In this document: piece by piece, positions 9,091-36,176 of the stretch
How the letters are laid out: every line of letters begins with the position of its first letter
Numbering within the stretch: the first letter of the stretch is position 1
IMG/VR virus record: IMGVR_UViG_3300035698_012380
Coordinates: 1-45,178 of that record
Reading direction: 5' to 3' (one strand)
DNA: 45,178 nt
DNA from: a virus
Notes under the pieces: model-generated
The model's input: only the letters and a program-made list of their open reading frames with translations
Databases searched by the model: none
Told to the model about the DNA's origin: nothing
Translations under genes and position numbers: made by a program

Positions 9091-9465
9091 CTATGCTTTG
9101 GCAAGTGCTAACTCAAAATTATACCAATCATAACCGCTGTTGGTTTTGACTTTGCTAATAAACTTAATTCTAACAATGTCTCCCTCTTCAGCAATTAGAT
9201 CAGGAACAGAGTTACCATGTCCCATCAAATCTACAAGTCCTGTTTTACCTAAGATCAAGACAGGTTTTTTTGCTCCCTTAACACGGAGAGTATATATTTT
9301 TTTGTAGATTTTACTTGCTTTAATCGAATCTATAACTCCTTCGATTGTTTCGCCTTCATTTACCTGATAAGTTGTTTCAGGATTTTTCTTTCCGATCGGG
9401 CCGAAATTACAAAAGAGAACTTCTTCATCCTCTTTGTCGGCGCTTTGATTTACAAATTTTGCCAT
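9091..9465 (-). CDS. probable OB-fold ssDNA-binding protein
   Basis: A 124-residue protein with the strand pattern of a phage OB-fold: GETIEGVIDSIKASKIYKK, YTLRVKGAKKPVLILGKT, LIAEEGDIVRIKFISKV, NSGYDWYNFELAL. The basic and aromatic residues fit nucleic-acid binding, and a phage carrying its own PolA and primase would be expected to encode an SSB. No catalytic motif. It is followed within 14 bp by the next small gene. SSB assignment rests on pattern and context, not on a strong signature. Confidence 0.55.
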   Translation of the reverse strand: MAKFVNQSADKEDEEVLFCNFGPIGKKNPETTYQVNEGETIEGVIDSIKASKIYKKIYTLRVKGAKKPVLILGKTGLVDLMGHGNSVPDLIAEEGDIVRIKFISKVKTNSGYDWYNFELALAKA

Positions 9466-11081: not shown

Positions 11082-11705
11082 TTATTCACCATTTACAAAA
11101 TACTTATTCTGCAAGTCTTCAAATATTGCCGGCATTCTATAGTGCAGTTTACAAAGTAGCCTTTGTGCAAATTCCCTTATCTCCGGTGTATTGTTTGAAG
11201 TAATACGTTGTTGAATTATATGTCTCCATTCCCTTGCGTTGGCGGTGATATACATATCTGTCAGACATGCATTTGGTAGGACTTCTCTTGCAATGTAATG
11301 TGGAACACCAGTATCTATAAGATGTTTGTATAATTTATTAATTGTACCCATCACTTTATCATATACAAGTTTATTAAATGCATCATTACCATAAGTCTCT
11401 AAGTCTTTATAAGAGAAATCTAAGTGCTTAACATAATGCTGAGACTTTACACTATATGATACAAGCCGATGCCTCGTGAGCTGCGCTAAAAACGATCGTG
11501 AGACGTCCTTTGCATATATTGATATACAAATATGTTCAAGAACTGACTCATGGCCAAGCTTTACTAGTTTTTTAGTAAACCTTTCCATATCACTTTGTGT
11601 CTTGTCTTTTAATTTACCAGCATCTCTCTGCCCGTAGCAATTTCTACCTGCAGTATAGACCATTCTCCAATAGTCTTCCGGATAATGTTCAACTGTTATA
11701 TTCAT
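11082..11705 (-). CDS. thyX: flavin-dependent thymidylate synthase
   Basis: A 207-residue ThyX. The signature RHR-x7-S is intact as RHRLVSYSVKS (residues 78-88), followed by HYV. ANAREWRHIIQQR in the C-terminal half matches the second conserved block. ThyX makes dTMP from dUMP using methylene-tetrahydrofolate, FAD and NADPH, and works as a tetramer. With dUTPase at 12.5-13.0 kb it forms a complete dUTP to dUMP to dTMP route. The gene starts inside the upstream stop (four-base overlap) and GGGTGA serves as SD. Confidence 0.95.
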   Translation of the reverse strand: MNITVEHYPEDYWRMVYTAGRNCYGQRDAGKLKDKTQSDMERFTKKLVKLGHESVLEHICISIYAKDVSRSFLAQLTRHRLVSYSVKSQHYVKHLDFSYKDLETYGNDAFNKLVYDKVMGTINKLYKHLIDTGVPHYIAREVLPNACLTDMYITANAREWRHIIQQRITSNNTPEIREFAQRLLCKLHYRMPAIFEDLQNKYFVNGE

Positions 11706-14940: not shown

Positions 14941-15312
14941 TTATTCTACCGGACTTAGAGTGGTTTCAATTGTTTTGCCAGTGCTTGGATTAACATCGAC
15001 TTTTAAAACGTCTATTTCCAAGATCGGTGCTTTGTGGGTGATTTTATATACATCATACCCTTCAGGTCCTTCTGCTTTTTTGATGATGTTTCTTGTGTGT
15101 TTTTCGTATTGACGTTTTGACTCACATTCCCTGCAATAAATATACAGTCCGTCTTTTCGGCGGTTGTCTACAGGAAAATTACTGAGACTCAATACTTGTT
15201 TACACTTTGTGCATGTTTTTGTAGTAGCCTTTAGGATTACTACGGGCACAATTTTTTCAGTCACTTTTGTTGTCTTCTGCGTCTTTTTTGCGTTATTTAC
15301 TTTTTTTGTCAT
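14941..15312 (-). CDS. zinc-finger protein, 123 aa
   Basis: Residues 1-32 are lysine- and threonine-rich and probably unstructured. Then CTKCKQVLSLSNF and LYIYCRECESKRQYE form a two-knuckle zinc finger of the type found near HNH endonucleases and in phage DNA-binding proteins. The rest (YDVYKITHKAPILEIDVLK) is strand-like. No HNH histidines are visible, so it is more likely a regulator than a nuclease. SD AAGGAGATAT. Confidence 0.68.
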   Translation of the reverse strand: MTKKVNNAKKTQKTTKVTEKIVPVVILKATTKTCTKCKQVLSLSNFPVDNRRKDGLYIYCRECESKRQYEKHTRNIIKKAEGPEGYDVYKITHKAPILEIDVLKVDVNPSTGKTIETTLSPVE

Positions 15313-15330
15313 TTATTATATCTCCTTATA

Positions 15331-15366
15331 GATAAAATAGTGAGGGATTGAACCTCTAGACTATTC
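15331..15366 (-). ncRNA. intergenic T-arm-like hairpin, copy 1
   Basis: On the minus strand AATAGT pairs with ACTATT, then a 3-nt bulge, then GAGG/CCTC closing a TTCAATC loop. The stop codon of the upstream gene (TAG) lies in the lower stem. TTTATCTATAAGGAGATAT and the next ATG follow. Compared with the other copies, both lower-stem strands have changed together. Confidence 0.65.
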
Positions 15367-15696
15367 TTTATTAATCGCTTTTTCTTGTTGCCTGACCATT
15401 TGACGTTTTGTCCAGTCTGACACAACTCCAAGACCTTCATTATGCAATTGTTTACTATTATACAATATTCCAGCACGAGTCATTTGGATTTTTGCGCCAT
15501 CTATAAAACATTCTTTTAAATGGTAATAGCTAATAATGTGATTTAAATCTTCCAAATGGAATACTTCAACTTCTACCCCTTGATGGGATATTTTCATACA
15601 GTGCTTAGTAAATTGAGTTACTCCAAATACTTCCAAATGATATATGTTTCCATATTTATCTAAACATGTAAATATATCAGATTTTGTCGAAGACAT
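15361..15696 (-). CDS. hypothetical protein, 111 aa
   Basis: A soluble alpha/beta protein: FTCLDKYGNIYHLEVFGV, a CMKISHQGVEVEVFHLED stretch, and a basic helical end (SDWTKRQMVRQQEKAINKE). It begins at a TAATG overlap and ends in hairpin copy 1. No domain recognised. Confidence 0.7.
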   Translation of the reverse strand: MSSTKSDIFTCLDKYGNIYHLEVFGVTQFTKHCMKISHQGVEVEVFHLEDLNHIISYYHLKECFIDGAKIQMTRAGILYNSKQLHNEGLGVVSDWTKRQMVRQQEKAINKE

Positions 15697-15803
15697 TATG
15701 CTTTTCCACCTAACTCTCTTGCTTTTTCAGAAACTACAAACACTTTTGCGATTTTAATAAGTTCCTTTTTGTCGGCATCTTCTACTTGACCTACGATTAT
15801 CAT
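15696..15803 (-). CDS. hypothetical protein, 35 aa
   Basis: Strong SD (AAAGGAGAT) before the ATG at 15803, TAATG overlap at its end. MIIVGQVEDADKKELIKI and a basic end; alpha/beta microprotein of unknown role. Confidence 0.6.
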   Translation of the reverse strand: MIIVGQVEDADKKELIKIAKVFVVSEKARELGGKA

Positions 15804-15821
15804 TTTTTATATCTCCTTTAA

Positions 15822-15858
15822 GATAAAATAACGGAGTATGACCTCCAGATTATTCTTT
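15822..15858 (-). ncRNA. intergenic T-arm-like hairpin, copy 2
   Basis: Minus strand: AATAA, TC bulge, TGGAG/CTCCG (one wobble), 6-nt loop GTCATA, TTATT closing the lower stem. The TAA stop of the membrane protein gene is inside the stem; an SD follows. Confidence 0.65.
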
Positions 15859-16071
15859 AATATATTTGATGAGTCCATAAATAGATATAGTAATTGATAT
15901 AGGTATTAAAAATAACTCCATAAGTGCTTCATTATATAGATTTATATTAATTGCAAAAAATCCACCATTAAAATATGCGGCTAAGAATACAATAAATAAT
16001 GCTATACTATGACTGACACAACTTCCTATTCCAATTACTATAAATAGATTTTTTTTACAGTGTAGTTTCAT
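15850..16071 (-). CDS. two-span membrane protein, 73 aa
   Basis: A basic start (MKLHCKKN) precedes a hydrophobic helix (about residues 9-34), a short loop rich in Asn, and a second helix (about 51-69, LFLIPISITISIYGLI). Helical hairpin topology with both ends cytoplasmic is likely. Holin-like in shape but located among early genes. Flanked by hairpins 2 and 3. Confidence 0.65.
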   Translation of the reverse strand: MKLHCKKNLFIVIGIGSCVSHSIALFIVFLAAYFNGGFFAININLYNEALMELFLIPISITISIYGLIKYIKE

Positions 16072-16088
16072 TTTTATATCTCCTATTA

Positions 16089-16124
16089 GATAAAATAATT
16101 GGGAATGAACCCAAGATTATTCTT
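16089..16124 (-). ncRNA. intergenic T-arm-like hairpin, copy 3
   Basis: Minus strand: AATAA, TC bulge, TTGGG/CCCAA, loop TTCATT (6 nt), TTATT. The stop of the upstream gene is in the lower stem; TTTATCTAATAGGAGATAT follows. Confidence 0.65.
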
Positions 16125-16341
16125 TAACATCAATTAGTATTTGTAATCCACCATTATCTTTCCAATAATAAATAGCAAATTCTACCCCATATTCTAAACA
16201 AATAAGGCTTATTTTTTTCGTCTCGCAGCGGGTAAATGAAGTTGCTTCTAAATATATCACATGTGGAGTTGTTGTTGTATTTATATTTACTCCATATATG
16301 GCTTCTTCTAATTTTTCGACTATAGTATTAAATTTGTTCAT
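16117..16341 (-). CDS. hypothetical protein, 74 aa
   Basis: Alpha/beta protein: MNKFNTIVEKLEEAIYG helix, HVIYLEATSF, KKISLICLEYGVEFAIYYW and GLQILIDVKE strands. It lies between hairpins 3 and 4 with an SD (AAGGAGATAT) of the shared cassette. Unknown function. Confidence 0.7.
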   Translation of the reverse strand: MNKFNTIVEKLEEAIYGVNINTTTTPHVIYLEATSFTRCETKKISLICLEYGVEFAIYYWKDNGGLQILIDVKE

Positions 16342-16358
16342 TTATATATCTCCTTATA

Positions 16359-16395
16359 GATAAAATAATTGGGAATTGAACCCAAGATTATTCTT
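16359..16395 (-). ncRNA. intergenic T-arm-like hairpin, copy 4
   Basis: Minus strand: AATAA, TC bulge, TTGGG/CCCAA, loop TTCAATT (7 nt), TTATT. Stem length (5 bp) and loop (7 nt, TTCAATT) are those of a tRNA T-arm. No acceptor partner is present nearby. Confidence 0.7.
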
Positions 16396-16789
16396 CACTA
16401 CTCATATTTTCCAAAAAGTCAATATAATCCATTAGTTGTGTTTGTAACCAATATTTCTTTGGGATATTATATTCTAATAATTCATGTGCTGGCATTTTTT
16501 CTATTTCATTTTGCGAAAATTTTTCATATGGATCGTTTTTAATTATTTTTACATAATCTCCAACACTTTCATCATCATTCCAAAGCCACTCATCAATATA
16601 GATAATAACGCAATTGTCCCACTCATCACAACCTTCAATCTTATCATCCATTCGAATGTAGATTTCACTTTTTGTAATATGGTCAATTTTGCCGGTTTGT
16701 CCTTTTGATATTATAAAATGGGGAAATGATCTGTCCCAATCTTCAATAAATTTAACTTTTTGGCCTTTTTTATACGCTTTTGTATTCAT
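16388..16789 (-). CDS. conserved phage protein with SH3-like N-terminus, 133 aa
   Basis: KKGQKVKFIEDWDRSFPHF, ISKGQTGKIDHITKSEIYI and MDDKIEGCDEWDN have the spacing of a small beta-barrel (SH3-like) domain often found in phage early genes. The C-terminal half is helical and acidic. No catalytic site. Flanked by hairpins 4 and 5; SD AAGGAGATAT. Confidence 0.7.
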   Translation of the reverse strand: MNTKAYKKGQKVKFIEDWDRSFPHFIISKGQTGKIDHITKSEIYIRMDDKIEGCDEWDNCVIIYIDEWLWNDDESVGDYVKIIKNDPYEKFSQNEIEKMPAHELLEYNIPKKYWLQTQLMDYIDFLENMSSEE

Positions 16790-16806
16790 TTATATATCTC
16801 CTTATA

Positions 16807-16842
16807 GATAAAATAATGGGATTTGACTCCCAGATTATTCTT
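16807..16842 (-). ncRNA. intergenic T-arm-like hairpin, copy 5
   Basis: Minus strand: AATAA, TC bulge, TGGGA/TCCCA, loop GTCAAA, TTATT. Here the upstream stop codon comes just before, rather than inside, the stem. The change from TTGGG/CCCAA to TGGGA/TCCCA keeps all pairs. Confidence 0.65.
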
Positions 16843-16988: not shown

Positions 16989-17014
16989 TTTTATATCTCC
17001 ATTTATATATTTAA

Positions 17015-17046
17015 AGTTGTATTCACCATGACGTGTTAATACAACT
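17015..17046 (-). promoter_or_regulatory. leader hairpin before the leftward operon
   Basis: AGTTGTATT (17015-17023) and AATACAACT (17038-17046) pair perfectly over 9 bp, with CAC/GTG continuing inside. In the leftward transcript it lies 27 nt upstream of the first ATG. Possibly protects the 5' end or controls translation; no T-tract follows, so it is not a terminator. Confidence 0.55.
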
Positions 17047-17091
17047 ATTCTGTCTTATTTATTATTTGAGATATATTATATTTGTTGTTTT

Positions 17092-17366
17092 GTCAATTTG
17101 ACGTAGTAACTATTATAAGAATAAAATTACTATAAACTAAATTTCATTGTATTTGGATTTTTGAATAATAAAGTATTAAAGTATTATTGAAATTCCGTAT
17201 TTCTTCATTCCAAGTTATTTTGGAAACACTTTTGCGGATTGACATAAAGTCAATATAGTAGAGTTAACTTCTCATATAGTTTCCGTTATTTGCTACTACA
17301 ATATATACATTGTCATTCGTACTATATATAGTTGTCTATTATAATCAACACTTTGACATTATGTCA
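17092..17366. promoter_or_regulatory. three GTCAA/TTGAC palindromes (operator candidates)
   Basis: GTCAATTTGAC at 17092-17102, TTGAC-5nt-GTCAA at 17239-17253 and TGACATTATGTCA at 17354-17366. They lie upstream of the leftward operon. A shared TGAC half-site in three separate palindromes suggests binding of a dimeric regulator, phage- or host-encoded. Confidence 0.45.
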
Positions 17367-17734
17367 GTTTTACTAAGTATTATAAGTATATATCTTATAT
17401 AAGATATTATTGATTTAAACAATATTTAGGATCAATATAAGAGACTTTAATTAGTTGTTAATAATAATACTTAAGTTAAATTATCTTGCTTTAGATCTTT
17501 TTAAAATAAACTTTAAATAAAAATAAGAAAAAAAAAAAAAAAATTAAGTTTCACTTTTTAATAAATTAATTAAATACTTAATTTCTTCAATATTTAATTC
17601 ATTTACTATAGTGTCAAAATTCCCATATATTAGTTTTTTATTCATACTATTATATTAGTATACATTATATATAAAGGTTTTTAGATATTCCCACATTTCG
17701 ACACTATGACATATTGCCCTTTCCCCCTTGATGG

Positions 17735-17905
17735 TATCACATATGGGCCCTATCACATACTGACCCTGCCACATACCGACACAGTAACACATAGGCACTA
17801 CTACACCATGACATATACACACACTGACATAGTAACATATGAGTATACATTCATATAAGTATTATCACACTATGCCCCTCTCACATACTGACATAACAAC
17901 ACATC
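17735..17905. repeat. iteron-like CACATA repeats
   Basis: CACATA recurs at 17738, 17754, 17770 and 17788, that is at 16-, 16- and 18-bp spacing, followed by variants (GACATA, AACATA) at 17810, 17826 and 17834 and another CACATA at 17882. The fuller unit is approximately CACATACTGAC plus AGTAACA. Regular spacing and degeneracy fit protein-binding iterons. Confidence 0.6.
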
Positions 17906-18109
17906 GTTACTTGGCGATATTATTATTCACAATTCATTTAAAAATCATTTAGAGTCAATATGAGATAAGTAACATATACCCTTATTGTTAATATTAATAA
18001 AAATACTTTTTGCTTCTCGGACTAAAGTATATATAGTTATTAGTAAAAGTTTATATACAAAAACAAAGTGAAATTCCCCATTCTATTTATTACATTATTA
18101 TATATTAGT

Positions 18110-18245
18110 ATAATTATATAATACATACTATACCACAATAATATAATATGGTATTAATATAATAATATAATATATAATATAGATGATATAATAATACATA
18201 TAATATATAATACTATTAATATATAATACATAATATAATATAATG
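18110..18245. repeat. nearly pure A/T tract (ATAATATA type)
   Basis: About 135 bp composed almost entirely of A and T in ATAATATA-like permutations. Such a tract is easily melted. Its position 200 bp from the iteron-like repeats matches a DNA-unwinding element; it could also be a low-complexity spacer. Confidence 0.6.
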
Positions 18246-18383
18246 GGGAATAGTCGTGCGGGAGATGAGTGTAACACATGAGTACATATTCATATGTCAG
18301 GTAATATATATCTATTATTATATTAGCATCGAAATAAAACCCGCAGGAAATAAAGTAATCATCGGGTAACTGCAGAATTATTA

Positions 18384-18435
18384 CTGTAAAGTTATCGTAA
18401 ACCGTCCTTATATGAAACGGGCTACCACTTTACAG
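18384..18435. other. 8-bp inverted repeat enclosing a second pairing
   Basis: CTGTAAAG (18384-18391) pairs with CTTTACAG (18428-18435), and CCGT/ACGG pairs within. Four further GTAAA-containing motifs occur between 18380 and 18500. Either a small structured RNA or clustered protein sites. Confidence 0.35.
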
Positions 18436-18495
18436 GACGTAAACCCTTTATATAGTGGGCGTAAAGTACCGGGCTTCCTGTAAAATTTTTTCTGT

Positions 18496-18543
18496 AAAAA
18501 AAAATAATGGGGTTTTAGGACCCACCAAGGGGGATTTTCCCCG
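18496..18543 (-). terminator. leftward terminator with tandem hairpins
   Basis: On the minus strand a GGGG-AAAAT-CCCC hairpin is followed by TGGGT/ACCC and then TTATTTTTTTTT. It lies two bases after the stop of the 50-aa zinc ribbon gene and would end transcripts of the 18.5-25.3 kb block before the gene-free region. Confidence 0.75.
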
Positions 18544-18544
18544 T

Positions 18545-31795: not shown

Positions 31796-31824
31796 AGGGG
31801 AATAACCCCTTCTATCTTTCTTTA
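31796..31824 (+). terminator. terminator after the capsid gene
   Basis: AGGGG-AATAA-CCCCT hairpin 8 nt after the capsid stop, then TTCTATCTTTCTTTAT. Nearly the same hairpin (AGGGG-AATCA-CCCCT) follows the major tail gene. Probably partial, because later late genes depend on read-through. Confidence 0.78.
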
Positions 31825-31841: not shown

Positions 31842-32207
31842 ATGTCATGGTATACAGCAAATCTTAGAAGCGCTTTTTATTACGGTAAATATAGATTTAA
31901 TATGTACAAAGATTTACAAGTACTGTATATAAAATATTTAGAGGGTTCCCTTGGAGGAAGTACTTCGGTGCCTGATGAACCACCTATTCAAGAAGCAACA
32001 TTTATTGAGGATTTTGAAACAAAGTGGATAGAAGAATCAGGTGAAGAATTAGAACCTAAATTTAATGACACATTTGAAATAGATTGGTTTATAATAAATA
32101 TATATTCAATTAATATTATGTTAGAAAACTTTGATGACAATTGGTTTACAATTAATGGATATAAAAATATCGCAGAAGAAACATTTGAAGATGATAGTTG
32201 GGATTAA
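31842..32207 (+). CDS. acidic repeat protein, 121 aa
   Basis: Four imperfect repeats of F-(E/D)-x-x-W: FIEDFETKW, FNDTFEIDWF, LENFDDNWF and ETFEDDSWD, in a very acidic protein. The N-terminus is aromatic and basic (TANLRSAFYYGKYRFNMY). SD GGGGAGAG. It ends one base before the next start; the following protein looks like the domain that usually comes after such a motif, so the two may be halves of one ancestral protein. Function unknown; surface decoration or adhesin is a guess. Confidence 0.68.
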   Translation: MSWYTANLRSAFYYGKYRFNMYKDLQVLYIKYLEGSLGGSTSVPDEPPIQEATFIEDFETKWIEESGEELEPKFNDTFEIDWFIINIYSINIMLENFDDNWFTINGYKNIAEETFEDDSWD

Positions 32208-32208
32208 T

Positions 32209-32739
32209 ATGGGTAAATCAAATTGGATTATAACAGGAGATGGTGGTATAAGCATCATTGAAGAAGGTGGTAGTAAACGCTGCCGTTTATCTTATACTAA
32301 ACTTATGTTGTGGAATGGGAATAGTGCTTGTACAGATTTTGAAGTTATAGCTGATGTAAATGTTCCAAGTACAACAAACTATCGCGGTGGATTAATTCTT
32401 AGATCTAATCTTTCTGGTACTACAATGTACAGATTAAGAGTATATGGTAGAAATACAACCTCAAGGACTTACTATATAGATAAAGTAGTCAATGGTGTAA
32501 TGACAACACTTGGCTCAGTAATAAGTATTCAACCATCTATATATGTAAAAACAAGATTTAGAGTAGATGGATTTCAATTGTCAGTAGAAGAATGGATTGA
32601 TGGTGATTGGGAAGTAATAACTATGGTAGAAGATACAAGTCAAGCAATAATATCTGGCTACTGTGGATTGATTGGAATGAGCCCAAATTCAGCTTATTAC
32701 ATCACATTTGATAATATTGAAATTAATGAAAAGGAATAG
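32209..32739 (+). CDS. lectin/LamG-like domain protein
   Basis: A 176-residue protein. I start at ATG 32209 (MGKSNWIITGDGG); an upstream ATG overlaps the acidic repeat gene. The strand order is that of concanavalin A-like laminin-G or glucanase lectins: FEVIADVNVPSTTNYRGG, LRVYGRNTTSRTYYIDKV, YVKTRFRVDGFQLSVEEW, YITFDNIEINEK. Probably a virion-surface carbohydrate-binding protein. The stop (TAG) lies inside an inverted repeat. Confidence 0.65.
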   Translation: MGKSNWIITGDGGISIIEEGGSKRCRLSYTKLMLWNGNSACTDFEVIADVNVPSTTNYRGGLILRSNLSGTTMYRLRVYGRNTTSRTYYIDKVVNGVMTTLGSVISIQPSIYVKTRFRVDGFQLSVEEWIDGDWEVITMVEDTSQAIISGYCGLIGMSPNSAYYITFDNIEINEKE

Positions 32740-32751
32740 TTATTCCTTAAT

Positions 32752-32826
32752 GCTTGGGTAGTTTATATAGTAAAACTCGGACTATTACTGATAGTACGGA
32801 AACAAGGTGCAAGTCCTTGCCCAGGA
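32752..32826 (+). tRNA. tRNA-like cloverleaf (non-canonical) between structural genes
   Basis: GCTTGGG (32752-32758) pairs at six of seven positions with CCCAGGA (32820-32826). A D-like arm is GTTT/AAAC with an 8-nt loop lacking GG. An extended arm ACTAT/ATAGT with a 5-nt TACTG loop follows in the anticodon position, and the T-arm is perfect (CAAGG/CCTTG) with a 7-nt loop TGCAAGT. The length is 75 nt, as in a tRNA. The anticodon-type loop is too short for normal decoding. No CCA is encoded. The gene downstream starts just after it. Confidence 0.4.
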
Positions 32827-32834
32827 ATGATAAA

Positions 32835-32966
32835 ATGAAAATGTTTATAGATATGGTAAATGGAGAATATTATTTTCTCGATGAGACCACAGAAGAAGGT
32901 AAAATAAAATACCAAGAATACTCTGAATCAAAACAATATATGGAGTACTTCGAATATGGCATCTAA
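32835..32966 (+). CDS. small hypothetical protein, 43 aa
   Basis: The likely ATG is at 32835 (MKMFIDMVNGEYYFLDETT); an upstream TTG frame would run through the tRNA-like element and is rejected. Acidic, aromatic microprotein. The C-terminal codons overlap the start of the nuclease gene by 11 bp. AGGA lies 8 nt before the start. Confidence 0.5.
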   Translation: MKMFIDMVNGEYYFLDETTEEGKIKYQEYSESKQYMEYFEYGI

Positions 32967-33672
32967 GAGCTGGAAAATCTTAGAATCAAAAGATTATGAA
33001 ACAACTAATAAAGCTTACTGCATTGATGGTCAAAAATATGCTAGGGTAACAAAAACTCTTTCTGTTATTGGAAAACCAGGAATAAACAGTTGGTTTGCAA
33101 ATGTTGGTAGAAGAAAAGCAGAAGCTGTAATTAAAAATCGTCAGATACTTGGAACTAAAGTTCATCACTTAATTGAATTACAACTCAAAGGAAAAGAGTT
33201 ACATTTAGATACACTTATAGATACTGCAGCAAACACTGAAATAAAAGAAGATATGAGACTATTTGATGTTTTCAATATAGAAGCTAATCTAAAACCAGAA
33301 GGCTTAGAACAGCGCCTATGGAGCAACACATATCAATACGCAGGAACTGCTGATTACATTGGCAACTATATAACTCCTGAACGCTTCTTGGTGAGAGGAC
33401 ATCAGGCAAGATTCTTAAAAGACTCATTAGTAATTGGTGACTGGAAAACTAGTAGAAGTATCTATCCAGAATATTGGTTACAACTCGCAGCATATGTACA
33501 AGCGTTTTATGAATTAACAGGTATCAAAGTAGATGGAGCTTTCATAGTTCAATTTAGATTTGGTAAAATAAAAATTAAAGAAAAGACATACGATGAGTTA
33601 GTAGCATTATTTGAAATATATAAATGCGCACTTACATTGTACTTTTGGAAATTTCCAAACGCATTAAAATAA
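32956..33672 (+). CDS. PD-(D/E)XK nuclease within the structural gene block
   Basis: A 238-residue protein with the core of RecB/Cas4-like exonucleases: ILGTKVHHLIELQLKG (helix with His), YAGTADYIGNY (the D of PD), LVIGDWKTSRS (DxK) and WLQLAAYVQAFYELTG as the conserved QLAAY helix. It is embedded between lectin-like, connector and tail completion genes instead of replication genes. Possibly processes DNA ends at packaging or ejection, or degrades host DNA late. No zinc-cluster cysteines are visible, unlike true Cas4. Confidence 0.72.
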   Translation: MASKSWKILESKDYETTNKAYCIDGQKYARVTKTLSVIGKPGINSWFANVGRRKAEAVIKNRQILGTKVHHLIELQLKGKELHLDTLIDTAANTEIKEDMRLFDVFNIEANLKPEGLEQRLWSNTYQYAGTADYIGNYITPERFLVRGHQARFLKDSLVIGDWKTSRSIYPEYWLQLAAYVQAFYELTGIKVDGAFIVQFRFGKIKIKEKTYDELVALFEIYKCALTLYFWKFPNALK

Positions 33673-35225: not shown

Positions 35226-36146
35226 ATGGCTTTAAACCGTATTGGTGAACCCTTCAAAGGAACTATTTGGTATTGGGTGGAAGATTCCTATGGTGGTGGA
35301 GAAAGTTCTACAACACTACCAATATCATGTAAAGTTCTCGACGTAAGAGTAGGAACTGGAGATAGGCATACACCGTTAGTTGGATTTGACTCTCCGATGG
35401 CGTGTCATTTACTACAGCAAACAAATGAACCAACGCTTCATCTTGAATATATCCCACAAATTGGCGATCATATGATAGATGATGTTGTGGACCGTGCTAC
35501 AAGTTGTTGCACACTACAATCTTTGGCATTTTGTATTGGTGCTAACGCATGTCTTGACGTAACTAATAATTCCTATTATGATGTTATCGGGGCTAAACCA
35601 AACACTGTTACAATCTCCGGGGCAAAGAATGAACCTTATAAAGTATCAATTGATTTTTTAACTAAATCGATTTTAACTGGTACAATTACTGGTTCAGCAC
35701 CTGCAGCATTAGCAGGAGCATATTGTCAATTCCATACAGCTGGAGAAATAAGAAAAACGACAGGACACGTAGTAGATACAGACCATATCGCTTTTATCAC
35801 AGACAGTATAAGCATCACATTTAACCACAATTTAACAGGATATACTGACCACGATTCTCTATTAAAATCATTTTTAGTAGAAGGACAGTATGCAATTGAA
35901 GGTACTTGTGATATTACACTAGATGGTGGTGGAGCAGAGCATTTCGGTGAAGCACTTGCTAATACAGCATTTACTATAACCGTAGATATGGGAGCAGCAG
36001 GAGCGCCTAGAATTACTTTAGCAGATTGTGAATGGAAACAAAGTGAAGTTGACCTAAACATTTCTGGTGAAGCAATAATGGAATCAGCGCCGTTTACCGC
36101 AAAACCATCAACATGTACTGCGCTAATATCTGTAGTGCCAGCATAA
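35226..36146 (+). CDS. major tail protein
   Basis: A 306-residue protein in the position of the tail tube gene (before the chaperone and tape measure). Strand-rich, with IPISCKVLDVRVGT, LHLEYIPQIGDHMIDDVV, GAKPNTVTISGAKNEPYKVS and ITFNHNLTGYTDHDSLL matching tube-protein character. Ten cysteines (TSCC, NAC and others) mirror the capsid protein. A strong SD and a terminator just after it indicate high expression. Tube function is inferred from position and composition, not a strong motif. Confidence 0.72.
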   Translation: MALNRIGEPFKGTIWYWVEDSYGGGESSTTLPISCKVLDVRVGTGDRHTPLVGFDSPMACHLLQQTNEPTLHLEYIPQIGDHMIDDVVDRATSCCTLQSLAFCIGANACLDVTNNSYYDVIGAKPNTVTISGAKNEPYKVSIDFLTKSILTGTITGSAPAALAGAYCQFHTAGEIRKTTGHVVDTDHIAFITDSISITFNHNLTGYTDHDSLLKSFLVEGQYAIEGTCDITLDGGGAEHFGEALANTAFTITVDMGAAGAPRITLADCEWKQSEVDLNISGEAIMESAPFTAKPSTCTALISVVPA

Positions 36147-36176
36147 GGGGAATCACCCCTTTTATTATTTTTTATA
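36145..36176 (+). terminator. terminator after the major tail gene
   Basis: AAGGGG-AATCA-CCCCTT hairpin followed by TTATTATTTTTTATA. A classical intrinsic terminator, starting in the stop codon of the tail gene. Confidence 0.85.

Follow-up and report, generated by a model that had tools for sequence, protein, structure and literature searches.

Hairpin array of the window

The window is the whole stretch of viral DNA analysed here, 45,178 bases that form a complete IMG/VR record. It carries similar hairpins at consecutive junctions of small genes, and raises the question of what a structure repeated in this way does. The initial annotation placed five intergenic hairpins at 15331, 15822, 16089, 16359 and 16807 and proposed that they serve as an attenuator, a processing site, a stability element or a mimic of a tRNA T-arm. 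All five are present on the minus strand (Table 1). They separate small genes directly downstream of a 1.5-kb A+T-rich non-coding stretch. This non-coding region lies upstream of the hairpin operon, has a counterpart in the related record G003 described below, and is a possible promoter or origin region.

In all five copies, 2–3 bulged nucleotides on the 5′ side separate the A+U lower stem from an upper stem of 4–5 bp. Copies 2–5 share the lower stem AGAATAA/TTATTTT with a TC bulge on its 5′ side, and their upper stems are TGGAG/CTCCG, TTGGG/CCCAA (twice) and TGGGA/TCCCA. Copy 1 is formed by the lower stem AGAATAGT/ACTATTTT, a CTA bulge, and the upper stem GAGG/CCTC; relative to the other copies its lower stem contains an A-T to G-C change, which is also compensatory. 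The loops are 6 nt (GTCATA, TTCATT, GTCAAA) or 7 nt long (TTCAATT, TTCAATC) and contain TCA in every copy, as had been described. The upstream stop codon, reported to lie inside the stem of most copies, is located in the 5′ strand of four of the five (TAG at 15363-15361 in copy 1), and finishes one base ahead of the stem of the hairpin at 16841. A U-rich tract borders each hairpin on the 3′ side, and the shared Shine-Dalgarno cassette AGGAGATAT and then ATG follow in all five cases.

The window virus belongs to an uncultured tailed-virus family. None of 50,697 phage records matches its primase-, capsid- or tail-type proteins, and a provirus and host search with the terminase or tail protein found no relative among 84,980 species genomes. 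Among the window proteins tested, the matches to cultured phages are distant terminase matches only. DNA-level searches of phage records returned only short chance matches, and a pattern search with the Shine-Dalgarno cassette alone only unrelated contigs.

Table 1 Features of the window and of related sequences.
Feature	Sequence	Position	Strand	Letters or remark
Junction hairpin copy 1	Window	15334..15367	-	AGAATAGT cta GAGG ttcaatc CCTC ACTATTTT
Junction hairpin copy 2	Window	15825..15856	-	AGAATAA tc TGGAG gtcata CTCCG TTATTTT
Junction hairpin copy 3	Window	16092..16123	-	AGAATAA tc TTGGG ttcatt CCCAA TTATTTT
Junction hairpin copy 4	Window	16362..16394	-	AGAATAA tc TTGGG ttcaatt CCCAA TTATTTT; literal T-arm match
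Junction hairpin copy 5	Window	16810..16841	-	AGAATAA tc TGGGA gtcaaa TCCCA TTATTTT
Shine-Dalgarno cassette after copy 1	Window	15318..15325	-	GGAGATAT
Shine-Dalgarno cassette after copy 2	Window	15809..15816	-	
Shine-Dalgarno cassette after copy 3	Window	16076..16083	-	
Shine-Dalgarno cassette after copy 4	Window	16346..16353	-	
Shine-Dalgarno cassette after copy 5	Window	16794..16801	-	
Gene after copy 1, endonuclease VII-like zinc-finger protein	Window	14941..15312	-	G003 ortholog also hairpin-preceded, other stem letters
Small gene after copy 2 (MIIVGQV...)	Window	15699..15806	-	G003 ortholog preceded by hairpin TCGGG tgcaatt CCCGA
133-aa gene after copy 5 and before copy 4	Window	16388..16789	-	Ortholog in G003 array
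A+T-rich non-coding region	Window	16989-18544		
Sixth bulged hairpin, related but different class	Window	17015..17046	-	AGTTGTATT aa CAC gtcatg GTG AATACAACT
Terminator-like stem-loop 3′ of capsid-type gene	Window	31796..31810	+	
Terminator-like stem-loop 3′ of major-tail-type gene	Window	36145..36161	+	Junction bearing same hairpin family in relatives
tRNA-Ser(ACU)	Window	32751-32828	+	Between genes 32131-32739 and 32956-33672
tRNA-like elements	Window	9063-8999; 8850-8798	-	After gene 9091-9465
tRNA-like elements	L042	10626-10990	+	
tRNA-like elements	L051	about 11120-10940	-	
GTCATG-class hairpin	L016	4495-4463	-	
GTCATG-class hairpin	L040	14160-14194	+	
GTCATG-class hairpins	L089	5259; 2531	-	
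Minihelix	L042	10627-10668		
Minihelix	L065	3522		
Minihelices	L082	271-314; 6923-6966		
Minihelix	L083	6909-6952		
Minihelix	L085	6923-6964		
Minihelix	L086	3050-3092		
Minihelices	L087	3355-3398; 6923-6966		
Minihelix	L088	3509-3552		
Full tRNA gene	L068	949-1021		
Full tRNA gene	L070	3272-3344		
Full tRNA gene	L072	3552-3623		
Full tRNA genes	L081	3692-3764; 6953-7025		
Duplicated ~95 bp of G018	L114	about 11440-11545; 12370-12460		Gene end and hairpin

Conservation of the pairing in related viruses

A search with the DNA primase/helicase-type protein identified two related records, 58% identical. One of them, IMGVR_UViG_3300005613_000191 (G003), is syntenic with the window over most of its length and contains seven hairpins of the same kind at the corresponding place of the genome. 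Two of these precede orthologs of window genes that are themselves preceded by hairpins, and their stems differ yet pair: GAGG/CCTC in the window corresponds to TCTGG/CCAGA in G003 before the endonuclease VII-like gene, and TGGAG/CTCCG to TCGGG/CCCGA before the MIIVG gene. Across the 12 copies of the window and G003, 98% of cells are paired, with double changes in four of the five pairs, versus 35–65% in slid controls. The covarying upper stem of the initial annotation is confirmed in 20 distinct copies from nine viruses, in which 99% of cells are paired and all five pairs show double changes, whereas slid controls are 43–67% paired. None of 500 shuffles reached the covariation score of the 20 copies; the shuffle does not remove relatedness, an effect from which the slid control is free. 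The C and A of the loop are invariant in all 20.

We built a covariance model, R2, from the 12 copies of the window and G003 with the upper stem alone paired. In 19 whole records it detected a third tandem array, in IMGVR_UViG_3300033149_004356 (G018), where four copies (E = 4e-6 to 1e-3) lie between a primase-type gene and thyX, the same genome position as that of the window array. Stop codons of the G018 copies are in or beside the stem, and a Shine-Dalgarno sequence follows the stem in most of them. The records G015 and G016 have single copies. In 548 kb of relatives, the six top-ranking hits to sequences not used for training are each weak (E = 0.015 to 0.6). They come from six different viruses, and every one is positioned directly 3′ of the stop codon of the major-tail-type gene, which was assigned by position rather than by a family match. 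Several of the model hits are marginal taken singly. The search for further copies that had been proposed at the outset thus led to the G018 array and to the tail-junction copies.

Hairpins were also counted with our own simple scripts, under a rule of a stem of at least 4 bp with three G-C pairs, a loop of 6–7 nt starting N[TG]CA, and at least six T in the next 12 bases. The window region holds five such hairpins against a mean of 0.0035 in 2,000 dinucleotide shuffles (maximum 1), and the matching region of G003 seven against 0.0025 expected. The single-sequence folding energies of the window hairpins are unremarkable (z -0.6 to -2.0). Since the single folds are not unusually stable, the case is built on repetition and covariation. 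Related viruses keep the pairing with a rewritten stem, so the conserved RNA signal is real, and covariation together with recurrence in relatives supports a selected RNA structure with compensatory change. No Rfam 15 family scores above its gathering threshold for the hairpins. The structure and the family are new to the sources searched; an intercistronic regulatory stem-loop is of a known kind.

Terminator-like properties of the junction hairpins

All 12 array copies of the window and G003 have the G+C-rich stem-loop of an intrinsic terminator, with an upper stem of 4–5 bp and at least three G-C pairs, and the U-rich tract, with six or more T among the 12 bases that follow the stem. The tract opens with A or C in copy 1 and three G003 copies. 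Terminator scores of the array copies, calculated with the d'Aubenton Carafa formula, range from -26 to -80 and are all below the threshold of d > 0; those of copy 1 and two G003 copies are within the null range. The array copies are terminator-like but weak, and most of them outrank the null. The tail-junction hairpins are located directly at the stop codon and are followed by long U tracts, and three members with a TTCATC loop score 0.7 to 1.9.

In nearly every relative, the junctions 3′ of the capsid-type and tail-type genes have at their very start, by the stop codon, a stem-loop resembling a terminator. Stop-proximal hairpins of relatives are above the null 95% level in 25 of 29 cases after a capsid-type gene and in 29 of 32 after a tail-type gene, with median scores near -25 (null median -100, null 95% -52). 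The window region has eight terminator-like sites against 1.9 expected. In Cluster O mycobacteriophages, a likely terminator after the major tail gene is reported to consist of a bulged 12-bp stem plus TTTCT (PMC4351075). The hairpins described here resemble such tail-gene terminators of tailed phages as stem-loops at a gene end with a U-rich tail, and the corresponding junction carries the window family in six relatives. Unlike these terminators, the array copies are shorter, bulged and weakly scoring, keep a UCA-type loop, and are repeated at consecutive small-gene junctions.

Because of the terminator-like scores, the presence of the family at the tail junction, and the Cluster O tail-gene terminator, we tentatively favor, at somewhat less than an even chance, that the hairpins are gene-junction stem-loops working as leaky terminators or 3′-boundary attenuators. 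Attenuator or stability element remains the best of the functional classes proposed initially, and T-arm mimicry is not retained. We hypothesize that the hairpins are copies of one cis-acting element that would act at the RNA level. The element consists of an upper stem of 4–5 bp that contains G+C and carries a loop of the UCA type and, beyond a bulge or a small internal loop, an A+U-rich lower stem that often holds the upstream stop codon; after it come a U-rich tract and then the next Shine-Dalgarno sequence. Each copy would combine a weak (leaky) intrinsic terminator or attenuator with a 3′-end hairpin. Behind each small gene, polymerases would pause or terminate in part, and the shortened messages would be protected at the hairpin, which would step expression down along the operon. 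A phage or host factor may change the read-through via the conserved loop.

Loop conservation and a putative bound factor

A simple terminator needs neither the conserved loop nor the compensatory change that copy 1 has in its lower stem, and both point beyond a plain terminator. Therefore, a bound factor is the strongest rival of the leaky-terminator reading. The hairpins would then be bound, through recognition of the NUCA loop, by an RNA-binding protein of phage or host origin. This protein would control the translation or decay of each downstream gene, and termination would be incidental. The loop C and A stay invariant though the stems vary, and the lower stems are near-uniform within a phage and different between phages, as in a co-evolving regulon.

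A sixth bulged hairpin of the window is situated in the operon leader, ahead of the first gene of the array operon. Its inner 12-mer CACGTCATGGTG is found again in relatives, in a second conserved hairpin class that has inner CAC GTCATG GTG, adjoins gene starts, and has completely different lower stems. This GUCAUG hairpin, which keeps its inner part while the lower stem is rewritten, and in which the next Shine-Dalgarno sequence is paired within the stem in three phages, is also consistent with recognition by a protein. Binding as the primary function is nevertheless rather unlikely: the analysis yielded no candidate protein, and the U-rich tracts after every array copy and the match to the terminator-like tail-junction hairpins would be left unexplained.

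Two other interactions were considered and discarded. The loop could pair with the AUG start (UCAU-AUGA) in several copies, but not in those with GCA loops, and such pairing is not general. Sequestration of the Shine-Dalgarno sequence by a second small hairpin, TATCT/AGATA, is present in the window and not kept in G018.

Resemblance to tRNA T-arms

Copy 4 had been called indistinguishable from a tRNA T-arm. The literal match holds, and copy 1 nearly attains it; mimicry does not follow, as copy 3 has the same stem and one loop A fewer. The hairpins could be acceptor/T-arm minihelices, tRNA mimics that would be cut by RNase P or RNase Z and punctuate a polycistronic mRNA. The window hairpins have 12 bp in total, split as 7+5 (four copies), 8+4 (copy 1) or 9+3, with a bulge in the 5′ strand and no interruption of the 3′ strand, and such a broken helix resembles the stacked acceptor and T stems of minihelices, which are model RNase P substrates. 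The 7-nt loop of copy 4, TTCAATT, is closed by a G-C pair, and full tRNAs and anticodon-less minihelices occupy other junctions of relatives. Unlike an acceptor-T minihelix, most copies have 6-nt loops unable to form the T-loop fold (three of five in the window, four of seven in G003, all in G018, and those of the tail junction), and only copies 1 and 4 have a 7-nt U-U-C-R-A-N-Y loop closed by G-C. The array hairpins lack RCCA, and their first pair is A-U.

A second model, R1, was derived from nine aligned acceptor/T-arm minihelices of relatives chosen for that fold. It matches the T-arm part of copy 4 with E = 9 and no other window copy, and the hairpins have no Rfam tRNA hit. T-arm mimicry was abandoned as the main reading because R1 missed the array copies and R2 tied them to the stop-proximal tail-junction hairpin. 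Furthermore, relatives such as L081 and L082 have a stop-proximal hairpin and, next to it at a position of its own in the same junction, a tRNA-like element. Hairpin and tRNA-like element are thus distinct, and the minihelix reading becomes improbable. P1/P7 C4 RNA and T4 gene 32 mRNA are phage RNAs cut by RNase P (cited in PMC11143913). The window hairpins are similar to them as phage RNA with a tRNA-like fold and a possible processing site, and differ in being without the defining tRNA features.

The minihelices of relatives are anticodon-less acceptor and T-arm structures at gene junctions, with a linker of 9–12 nt that is often GTGGGAATNNN. The nine aligned members, selected for the acceptor/T-arm fold, covary, and the R1 search finds further members. 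With a T stem of at least three G-C pairs and a linker of up to 12 nt, 11 are found, versus none in 20 Markov sets and none in the reversed sequence. The next start codon is often a few bases 3′ of the acceptor strand, which in some cases contains the Shine-Dalgarno sequence.

Full tRNA genes are present within the structural operon. Several records have Thr UGU behind the capsid-type gene, with the next ATG two bases downstream, and Ala UGC stands behind the tail-type gene. tRNA-like elements with a T-arm and acceptor and no clear anticodon arm follow a window gene and occur at the same place in relatives; of those in L051, one has a weak Rfam match to tmRNA and another to tRNA, with scores under the gathering level. 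ARAGORN identified a tRNA-Ser(ACU) in the window, whose T-loop TGCAAGT is of the loop type of three G003 array hairpins. We consider it quite improbable that one evolving tRNA-derived class, running from full tRNAs through minihelices to bulged hairpins, punctuates the junctions, with host tRNA processing cutting or gating the polycistronic mRNA.

DNA-level alternatives

The hairpins could be cassette boundaries, that is, repeated DNA for homologous exchange of small genes, with the structure as a by-product. Cassettes within one genome are near-identical, and in G018 about 95 bp comprising a gene end and hairpin are duplicated at two array sites, which suggests that small genes are exchanged at cassettes. 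The stems however change by paired substitutions, for which DNA-level recombination has no need, and the orientation and the position relative to the stop codon and Shine-Dalgarno sequence are fixed; this function is very unlikely.

Tandem inverted repeats in an early-type operon are also reminiscent of operator or stoperator sites for a dimeric repressor, and stoperators and ESAS are known from other phages. In the hairpins, the spacer is conserved and the arms are variable, which is the reverse of a DNA dyad operator, and all copies have one orientation; an operator role is extremely unlikely. Like the SAS/ESAS of Cluster K mycobacteriophages, the hairpins are inverted repeats upstream of a start-associated sequence, present in many copies in a non-structural gene region, with a consensus that differs between subclusters (PMC3203893). 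SAS/ESAS are defined by GGGATAGGAGCCC next to the start codon and 17-bp inverted repeats (PMC3203893), whereas the window has the AGGAGATAT cassette and arms of 4–8 bp. For ESAS variants, the authors report no support for RNA pairing and favor DNA binding (PMC3203893); in the window, the support for RNA pairing is strong, and the upstream stop codon is where the element starts.

Implications for the virus lineage

The junction hairpins are a covariation-supported RNA element without an Rfam entry, recurrent at gene junctions of a lineage of uncultured tailed viruses. For the proteins of this lineage that were tested, cultured phages gave distant matches or none. A single loop base can produce a striking T-arm match in a different structure, and the hairpin is probably not the tRNA mimic that it resembles. 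As judged from its sequence features, the conserved RNA signal probably restricts transcription at each junction or brings it to an end, and its UCA-type loop may bind a factor. The tandem junction hairpins offer a concrete case for testing a built-in expression gradient.
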